Assembly: GCA_004020545.1 (NCBI GenBank)
Contig: SAQE01000042.1
Location: 1 to 52,889 of the forward strand
Length of the DNA stretch: 52,889 bases
Direction of reading: 5' to 3'
From: Mesorhizobium sp.
Lineage (GTDB): Bacteria > Pseudomonadota > Alphaproteobacteria > Rhizobiales > Rhizobiaceae
Each line of letters begins with the position of its first letter. The first letter of the stretch is position 1. Made by a program: the position numbers and the translations under genes. This document shows, piece by piece, positions 22,027 through 23,151 of this stretch. The notes beneath the pieces were generated by a model. The model saw only the letters and a program-made list of their open reading frames with translations. It was not told the DNA's origin and searched no databases.

Positions 22027-22164
22027 GCGCTGGCGAACCCTCCGGCAGCGGGCATTTCGGTTAACGCTTTGTTAATAAAAGCCTGCGGGGCGAAGGTCCA
22101 CAAGCCAGGCCGTGCATCGGCTGAAATCTCTGGGCTCGTGGTTAACGGTCAGGGCTTTTTTATG

Positions 22165-22194
22165 GTGCGCTGCAACAAAGATGTTGCAATGCAC
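22165..22194. promoter_or_regulatory. palindromic operator upstream of the phasin gene, PhaR-like
   Basis: GTGCGCTGCAAC, six bases, then GTTGCAATGCAC form an inverted repeat with only two mismatches. TGCA-rich palindromes of this kind are bound by PhaR, the PHB-responsive repressor of phasin genes. It lies 80 bases before the phasin start, and an ATTGCC word follows it. PhaR itself is not in the window. Confidence 0.55.
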
Positions 22195-22273
22195 AAAAAT
22201 TGCCTTTATATTGCCACTATACATGAACGAGACGGCTTTCTGTCAAAGCCGCTACCGCTGAAAGGTTGGAAAA

Positions 22274-22735
22274 ATGTCCAAGACTGCCAAGTCCGCCGAG
22301 ACCATCGAGAACGTGGAATTTCCGAGCTTCGACGCTTCCAAGGCCACCGACCAGATCCGCGCCTTCGCCGAGAAGGGCGTCGAGCAGTCGAAGGAGGCCT
22401 ATGCCAAGCTGAAGACCGGCGCCGAGGAGACCCAGAAGGTTCTGGAGTCGACCTACGAGACCGCCAAGACCGTTTCTGGCGACCTGTCGCTGAAGGCCAT
22501 CGCCATTCTGCGCGCCAACGCCGAGGCCGGCTTCTCGCATCTCGAAGCCCTGGTCGGCGCCAAGACGCTCTCGGAGGTCGTCGAACTGCAGACCTCCTTC
22601 CTGCGCAAGCGCGTCGAGATGGCCGTCGAGCAGGTCAAGGACTTCCAGACGGTTGCCTCCAAGGCGGTCGAGGACGTCTCCAAGCCGGTCAAGACCGCTT
22701 TCGAAAAGGCGATCAAGGACGCCAAGTTGGCCTGA
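22274..22735 (+). CDS. phaP: phasin, PHB-granule surface protein
   Basis: This 153-residue, almost wholly helical, Ala/Lys/Glu-rich protein has the phasin pattern: TDQIRAFAEKGVEQSKEAYA near residue 35, a central amphipathic stretch, and VVELQTSFLRKRVEMAVEQV near 115. The C-terminal helix (SKPVKTAFEKAIKDAKLA) is basic. Phasins coat polyhydroxybutyrate granules and control their size and number. An AAAGG ribosome site precedes the ATG. Upstream is a PhaR-like palindrome, and downstream is the CCUCCUCCC-loop RNA. With aacS and the kinase it matches the phaP1 neighbourhood of S. meliloti. Confidence 0.92.
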   Translation: MSKTAKSAETIENVEFPSFDASKATDQIRAFAEKGVEQSKEAYAKLKTGAEETQKVLESTYETAKTVSGDLSLKAIAILRANAEAGFSHLEALVGAKTLSEVVELQTSFLRKRVEMAVEQVKDFQTVASKAVEDVSKPVKTAFEKAIKDAKLA

Positions 22736-22813
22736 AACGCACGACCGAAAGCTGCATCAAAACGTCGCATTTTGTCAGACAAATACATGTGCGATAGGTT
22801 AAGCAGACGAATA

Positions 22814-22925
22814 CCCGGGGAGTGAAACCTCCTCCCTTCGCTTTCCGGGGTAACCAGCCAGCACCTCCTCCCGCTGGCTCGTAACAGGAAAAGGCCGGCA
22901 CCTCCTCCCGCCGGCCTTTTCTTTT
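22814..22925 (+). ncRNA. triple-hairpin RNA with three identical ACCUCCUCCC loops
   Basis: Three hairpins stand in a row. The first has a 13-bp stem CCCGGGGAGTGAA/TTCGCTTTCCGGG with G-U pairs (22814-22849). The second is AGCCAGC/GCTGGCT (22856-22879). The third is GGCCGGC/GCCGGCC followed by TTTTCTTTT, an intrinsic terminator (22893-22925). Every loop is exactly A-CCTCCTCCC, at 22828-22836, 22864-22872 and 22901-22909. The loop is complementary to Shine-Dalgarno sequences. This is the architecture of the CCUCCUCCC-motif (CcsR, 'cuckoo') RNAs described in Rhodobacter. It starts 78 bases after the phasin stop and may be processed from its mRNA; a weak TTGTCA-N17-TAGGTT promoter-like pair lies at 22772-22800. 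Confidence 0.8.
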
Positions 22926-23074
22926 GCCCGGCTAAAACGGGTGCCGGTTCGTTGAACCGGCCTTTGCCTAATCAAAGGCCTTGAATTAGACTCTGATAGC
23001 CCGTATTGGACGCATCGCCGAGGACAGCGCGGGCGTGGAGAACCGTTTCTCCTCGATTGCGCTCAGGCGGATGT

Positions 23075-23151
23075 GCCGTTGTAGCTCAGTTGGTTAGAGC
23101 ACCAGATTGTGGATCTGGGGGTCGCTGGTTCGAGCCCAGCCAACGGTACCA
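23075..23151 (+). tRNA. tRNA-His (GTG anticodon)
   Basis: A complete 77-base cloverleaf includes the encoded CCA. The acceptor is GCCGTTG/CAACGGT with a G-U end pair. The anticodon arm is CCAGA-TTGTGGA-TCTGG and the T arm is GCTGG-TTCGAGC-CCAGC. The base at -1 is T and the discriminator is A73, so the G-1 identity base normal for tRNA-His is not encoded. This agrees with the known departure in part of the Alphaproteobacteria. Confidence 0.97.

Follow-up and report, generated by a model that had tools for sequence, protein, structure and literature searches.

An ar14-family RNA kept in the phasin-gene tail of Mesorhizobium and many related genera suggests a silencing RNA made when the cell stores carbon

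Introduction

The alpha-r14 (ar14) family of small RNAs (sRNAs) is described as three hairpins carrying the same CCUCCUCCC anti-Shine-Dalgarno motif on highly different stems (PMC10746234; PMC7143759), and the related SmelA075 model is likewise reported to combine this motif with differing stems (PMC3927594). For NfeR1, the studied family member of Sinorhizobium meliloti, the reported mode of action is antisense silencing at the translation-start regions of mRNAs via the loops (PMC10746234). The RNAs CcsR1-4 of Rhodobacter sphaeroides are reported to lie downstream of a protein gene, to share one transcript with it and to be released by RNase E (PMC10253847). Here we analyse an RNA of this kind that lies behind a phasin gene in a stretch of 52,889 bases from Mesorhizobium sp. 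(contig SAQE01000042.1; hereafter the window, with all features given on the + strand). An earlier note, made from the letters of the window alone, had correctly named the CcsR/cuckoo RNAs as kin of this element and had missed the ar14 family (RF02344), to which NfeR1 belongs.

A second group of described systems concerns polyhydroxybutyrate (PHB). In S. meliloti, PHB is reported to sequester the regulator PhaR (AniA), whose core site YGCRNYGCR occurs in two copies flanking the -35 element of both phaP1 and phaP2 and is bound by PhaR (PMC12542648). PhaR is reported to repress the S. meliloti sRNA MmgR at the MmgR promoter, and MmgR to lower phasins (PMC8401924), an effect that PMC7143759 words the other way. 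A link to PHB, phasins and PhaR/AniA is what the present RNA shares with MmgR (PMC8401924, PMC12542648, PMC7143759); the two differ in that the present one is carried by the phasin gene itself, and the connection to MmgR drawn in the earlier note is a functional parallel at most, MmgR being a member of a separate family, alpha-r8 (PMC8401924). No phasin-linked cuckoo or ar14 RNA was recognised in our literature searches, which did not reach two founding papers, so that its unpublished status is uncertain. The hairpin family is known; what is new is its stable place, across many genera, as the 3' untranslated region (UTR) of a phasin gene of the PhaR type, and this conserved position suggests a silencing RNA made when the cell stores carbon.

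Results

A three-hairpin ar14 RNA behind the phasin gene

The phasin gene (22274-22735, 153 amino acids (aa)) matches PF09361 with 57 bits and TIGR01985 with 141.5 bits, in agreement with the earlier identification of the host gene. Positions 22810-22922 match the Rfam model RF02344 (ar14) with 70.2 bits against a gathering score of 58.8, and the locus displays the traits of the family: three hairpins, CCUCCUCCC in each loop, and variable stems. The phasin-tail RNA is an alpha-r14/"cuckoo" family member with the same possible pairing partners as NfeR1; unlike NfeR1 and other described ar14 RNAs, it adjoins a phasin with a PhaR-type operator. Folding and loop search place hairpin 1 at 22814-22849 (13 pairs, loop 22827-22836) and hairpin 2 at 22856-22879 (seven pairs, loop 22863-22872), followed by hairpin 3 at 22887-22922 (13 pairs, loop 22900-22909); the 10-base loop ACCUCCUCCC is common to all three (22814-22922). 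The + strand of the window contains ACCTCCTCCC three times (22827, 22863 and 22900), and no further copy was found on either strand over the 52,889 bases searched. The predicted fold of 22790-22940 comprises the same hairpins with 13, 7 and 13 pairs, each presenting the exact loop, at an energy of -63.8 kcal/mol (z = -4.1) that was reached by none of 200 shuffles. The earlier note had described three hairpins with an identical loop, which are confirmed here; the stems, called unrelated there, are so only in the case of hairpin 1, since GCCRGC adjoins the loop in both stem 2 and stem 3.

A TTTTG sequence comes after hairpin 3, which by eye has the appearance of an intrinsic terminator and is the probable terminator that the earlier note had proposed. 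It was not called by the terminator scanner, which accepts loops of 3-8 bases only. The single call that the scanner did make (22817-22834) was weak and, with a chance mean of 1.9 calls, below chance. Across 16 phasin-linked RNAs, 20 of the 29 predicted pairs show compensating changes on both sides, and stem 1 varies with compensation across genus sequences; the zero entropies of the loops arise by construction, the rows having been picked for exact loops.

Other members of the family

Only ar14 and tRNA models reached their cut-offs in an Rfam scan of the window, and the ar14 cut-off was passed by 13 of the 15 phasin-linked loci tried (11 from other genera, four from the genus). The RNA is like CcsR/CIN1 in its CCUCCUCCC loops and its position downstream of a protein gene, and unlike them in having a phasin rather than a DUF1127 protein as host. 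It is also distinct from CcsR1: the model RF02791 gave no match at cut-off in the window, and five phasin-linked relatives scored 28.5-35.6 bits, hence at most 35.6, against its cut-off of 65.3.

The genome from which the window derives holds seven ar14 matches at E values up to 1, four of them above the cut-off: a tandem pair behind a DUF1127 gene, one copy on contig C133, and the phasin-linked copy. The tandem pair (G000:C122:187939-188216, L001/L002) follows directly upon the DUF1127 gene (PF06568), with six loops in a row, and constitutes a CIN1/CcsR-like arrangement apart from the phasin-linked copy. More widely, every one of the 119 genomes in the genus sample holds ar14 (118 above cut-off), as do 114 of the 121 in the family sample, or 103 of 109 genera there. 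We also assembled 100 ar14 copies of other genera, which are the best-scoring ones and therefore under-sample lower-scoring phasin-linked copies. A DUF1127-like frame lies near 48 of these (seed from the own genome, confirmed by PF06568). Separately, 17 of the 100, among L179-L247, carry a TGCA-type box, in which a short gap separates TGCA from GCA, 77-82 nucleotides (nt) before the end point of the scan, set 5 nt upstream of the first loop; these boxes often precede TTGCTGCA-like sequence, a DUF1127-like frame lies near at least five of the 17 copies, and the boxes are likely a shared operator of ar14 copies.

Linkage to the phasin gene within and beyond the genus

Genus loci were picked by their phasin protein, with at least 70% identity required. 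The 107 loci obtained comprise sets of 80 and 27 with overlapping species and so are not independent; three CCTCCTC loops lie 85-172 nt past the phasin stop in 105 of them, and the other two are cut off by contig ends. A set of eight genus loci, among them that of the window, has three loops in seven cases and two in one. Among the 90 distinct full-length genus sequences (74, 8 and 8 from three sets), three exact CCTCCTCCC loops are found in 89 and two in the remaining one while stem 1 varies, which supports the earlier claim that the loops are under selection; their absence from related genomes, the outcome named beforehand as counting against that claim, was looked for, and the loops proved conserved. 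Twelve more loci, which belong to the most divergent of the genus, are less perfect: five retain three exact loops, five retain two, one retains a single loop and one has none. Where the genus has a second phasin copy (eight cases), no loops were found behind it.

Outside the genus, a covariance model (R1) built from 16 phasin-linked RNAs scored at least 69 bits at 29 of 92 phasin loci, representing 27 genera (11 of the 29 belong to its training set), and 31-49 bits at six more. A motif count in the family sample gave at least two CCTCCTC within 250 nt of the stop at 24 of 87 phasin loci and none at 54; in the order sample outside the genus, CCTCCTC followed the phasin at 0 of 22 loci. We placed 104 chosen rows on a phasin tree. 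The rows labelled as RNA-bearing, 38 in number, all fall within one clade of 60 (support 98/92) that also holds six weak rows and 16 without the RNA, and none of the 44 rows outside it reaches 31 bits with R1. Graded decay of the loops is apparent at L290, L293, L302, L305, L375, L378, L380 and L381, which keep the stem with a shortened or different loop, often in the middle hairpin. A tRNA-His gene (23075-23151) is a syntenic marker outside the mechanism: it follows the phasin at 25 of the 28 loci that were scanned, RNA present or not.

The hairpins could in principle be nothing but a strong terminator and stabiliser of the phasin mRNA, with loop identity inherited and no longer functional. 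Such a role would suit the terminator-like hairpin 3 and those loci at which the hairpins are kept with loops shortened or lost (L290, L293, L302, L305, L380 and L381). However, termination needs no three identical loops, and the retention of all three in 89 of the 90 genus sequences, though stem 1 drifts with compensation, makes this explanation improbable.

Origin of the transcript

Outside the genus, the first loop lies a median of 34 nt past the phasin stop, within 26-45 nt at 28 of 29 loci and at 98 nt in one; loop positions were used instead of the hairpin-1 start (median 18 nt past the stop), which may include outer pairs. Because 28 of the 29 first loops lie within 45 nt of the stop and are preceded by a stem of about 12 bases, an origin of the RNA in the 3' UTR is favoured in these genera, where a separate promoter would have little room and hardly fits. 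The choice between an own promoter and processing, raised in the earlier note, thus leans towards the 3' UTR outside the genus. This argument rests on loop positions, and in core Mesorhizobium, where the first loop lies 85-99 nt past the stop (90 sequences), either origin may apply.

The intervening sequence in the genus contains a dyad, TGCATCAAAACGTCGCAT (22753-22770), recognised from conserved alignment columns and present as TGCA[T/A]CAAAA[C/G]GTCGCAT in most of the 90 sequences, which may serve as an operator or belong to a promoter. Downstream (3') of the dyad, the spacer (22736-22810) exists in at least two sequence types. Control of the spacer by PhaR was considered and set aside: the dyad is operator-like at first sight, yet a YGCRNYGCR core occurs in only 19 of 90 spacers.

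These features bear on the alternative that in Mesorhizobium the ar14 RNA is transcribed independently from a promoter in the spacer, like NfeR1, and that the phasin is a mere upstream neighbour. The distance of the first loop, the dyad, and a moderately conserved stretch at the expected -10 position of the genus spacer are consistent with it, as is the TGCA-type box that precedes 35 of the 100 copies sampled in other genera, with a similar spacing in 17 of them. However, no sigma-70-like site was called near the dyad or elsewhere between phasin and RNA (scan of 22060-22990), and the spacer is much shorter in other genera and in several basal genus members. For orthology with NfeR1, which would be marked by an own sigma-70 promoter with LsrB and NtrC sites, the lack of such a call stands beside the conserved dyad. 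The -35/-10 pattern of NfeR1, as coded here, matches 0 of the 100 other ar14 copies and so is a weak test. On balance we consider independent transcription rather unlikely.

A PhaR-type double operator before the phasin

The only promoter-like site called in 22060-22990 is that of the phasin, a sigma-70-like TTGCAA-17-TATATT at 22184-22212 (0.2 expected from shuffles). A double PhaR-type operator, TGCGCTGCA-N10-TGCAATGCA, with two YGCRNYGCR cores 19 nt apart, occupies 22166-22193 and resembles the two-site phaP1 and phaP2 promoters described for S. meliloti (PMC12542648). All 81 phasin promoters of the genus that were checked contain the pair at the same spacing, where shuffles would give 0.6, and in the family sample at least two cores precede 73 of 86 phasins (0.9 expected), including 24 of 24 phasins with at least two loops. 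A genome-wide count of the double operator is uninformative, since it yields 14 sites against 12 for the reversed pattern; the evidence is conservation in place. A second match (G000:C139:34237) lies by an acyltransferase-like frame and small frames, as judged by eye; no PHB gene was recognised there, and no family search was run. On sequence grounds, PHB control of the phasin is thus well supported, and PHB control of the RNA would follow only if the RNA is co-transcribed with the phasin.

Ribosome sites and possible targets

The loops are able to pair with Shine-Dalgarno sequences, as had been proposed, and the ribosome site of the phasin itself offers them little. All 80 loci of the 80-locus genus set have a 4-nt match between this site and the loop complement, and a match of at least 5 nt occurs in five of 29 other RNA-bearing phasins versus 30 of 40 phasins outside the clade. 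The host phasin message thus looks as if it were kept out of the range of the loops. This pattern speaks against an autoregulatory tail whose loops act in cis on phasin translation, a reading for which physical linkage is the sole support: of 109 ribosome sites of RNA-bearing phasins, 104 offer no more than 4 nt of unbroken complementarity (24 of the 29 from other genera and all 80 of the genus set), and cis action appears very improbable.

Across the own genome, GGAGGAGG-N4-10-ATG occurs at 32 sites against six for a reversed control, and a 9-base target pattern at four sites against one. Thirty target loci were fetched, of which 19 have a frame of at least 100 aa; eight of the 19 encode transporter-type domains, although several of the transporter-type starts look internal. 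The list is weakly in line with the transporter-rich predictions for NfeR1, and it is not specific to the phasin-linked copy, since it applies to every ar14 copy.

Discussion

We favour the reading, with a probability of roughly 0.55, that the ar14 RNA is borne by the 3' UTR of the phasin mRNA, is made with it when PHB removes PhaR, and silences other mRNAs in trans. As PHB accumulates, it would strip the phasin promoter of its repressor PhaR (AniA), and the phasin mRNA would then be made and terminate at the third hairpin. Its three-hairpin tail of about 110 nt may act in trans, whole or after cleavage, each ACCUCCUCCC loop pairing with GGAGG-rich Shine-Dalgarno regions and thereby keeping other mRNAs from being translated; transporter mRNAs would probably be among them, as with NfeR1, while the ribosome site of the phasin would be spared. 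The NfeR1 mode is our best guess here because the loops are identical, and the antisense silencing reported for NfeR1 (PMC10746234) differs from the titration suggested in the earlier note, whose interpretation is partly supported overall. Family membership, conservation, linkage, the lack of promoter room in other genera and the operator-like sequence are direct observations; from them we infer the transcription, processing, PhaR binding and targets of the phasin-linked RNA.

Several observations weigh against this proposal. An RNA-seq survey of M. huakuii lists 40 candidates, none of them named ar14 or RF02344, and a phasin lies near 0 of the 100 best-scoring ar14 copies of other genera, a sample biased against lower scores. 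Of 53 phasins that lack the loops, 40 likewise have the double operator upstream, which therefore marks phasins, not the RNA. The contrast in ribosome sites tracks phylogeny and could be explained by shared ancestry; within the clade, matches of at least 5 nt occur in five of 29 RNA-bearing and seven of 15 RNA-less phasins (p = 0.07). The RNA label needs 10 changes on the phasin tree, the bootstrap is not settled and several losses are assumed; we read the tree as one gain of the RNA followed by losses, of which it is no proof. Finally, in core Mesorhizobium about 60 nt of spacer, with the conserved dyad in it, lie between stop and RNA, and an own promoter is possible there.

More tentatively, and at somewhat less than even odds, the locus may be seen as one gene with two products: a phasin that coats PHB and an anti-Shine-Dalgarno RNA with three heads, derived from the phasin mRNA, that would damp the translation of uptake and other genes, with PhaR turning the state of the carbon store into an RNA signal acting in trans. 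The unit of operator pair, phasin and ar14 tail would then have a single origin, within one clade of the family, and core Mesorhizobium would later have acquired the spacer and perhaps a second promoter. The ar14/cuckoo RNAs are multi-copy with identical loops. The occurrence of a phasin-tied copy over many genera suggests that ar14 copies differ by timing rather than by pairing partner, and an ar14 RNA tied to PHB would connect carbon storage with the control of translation in a testable way, within about 110 bases.
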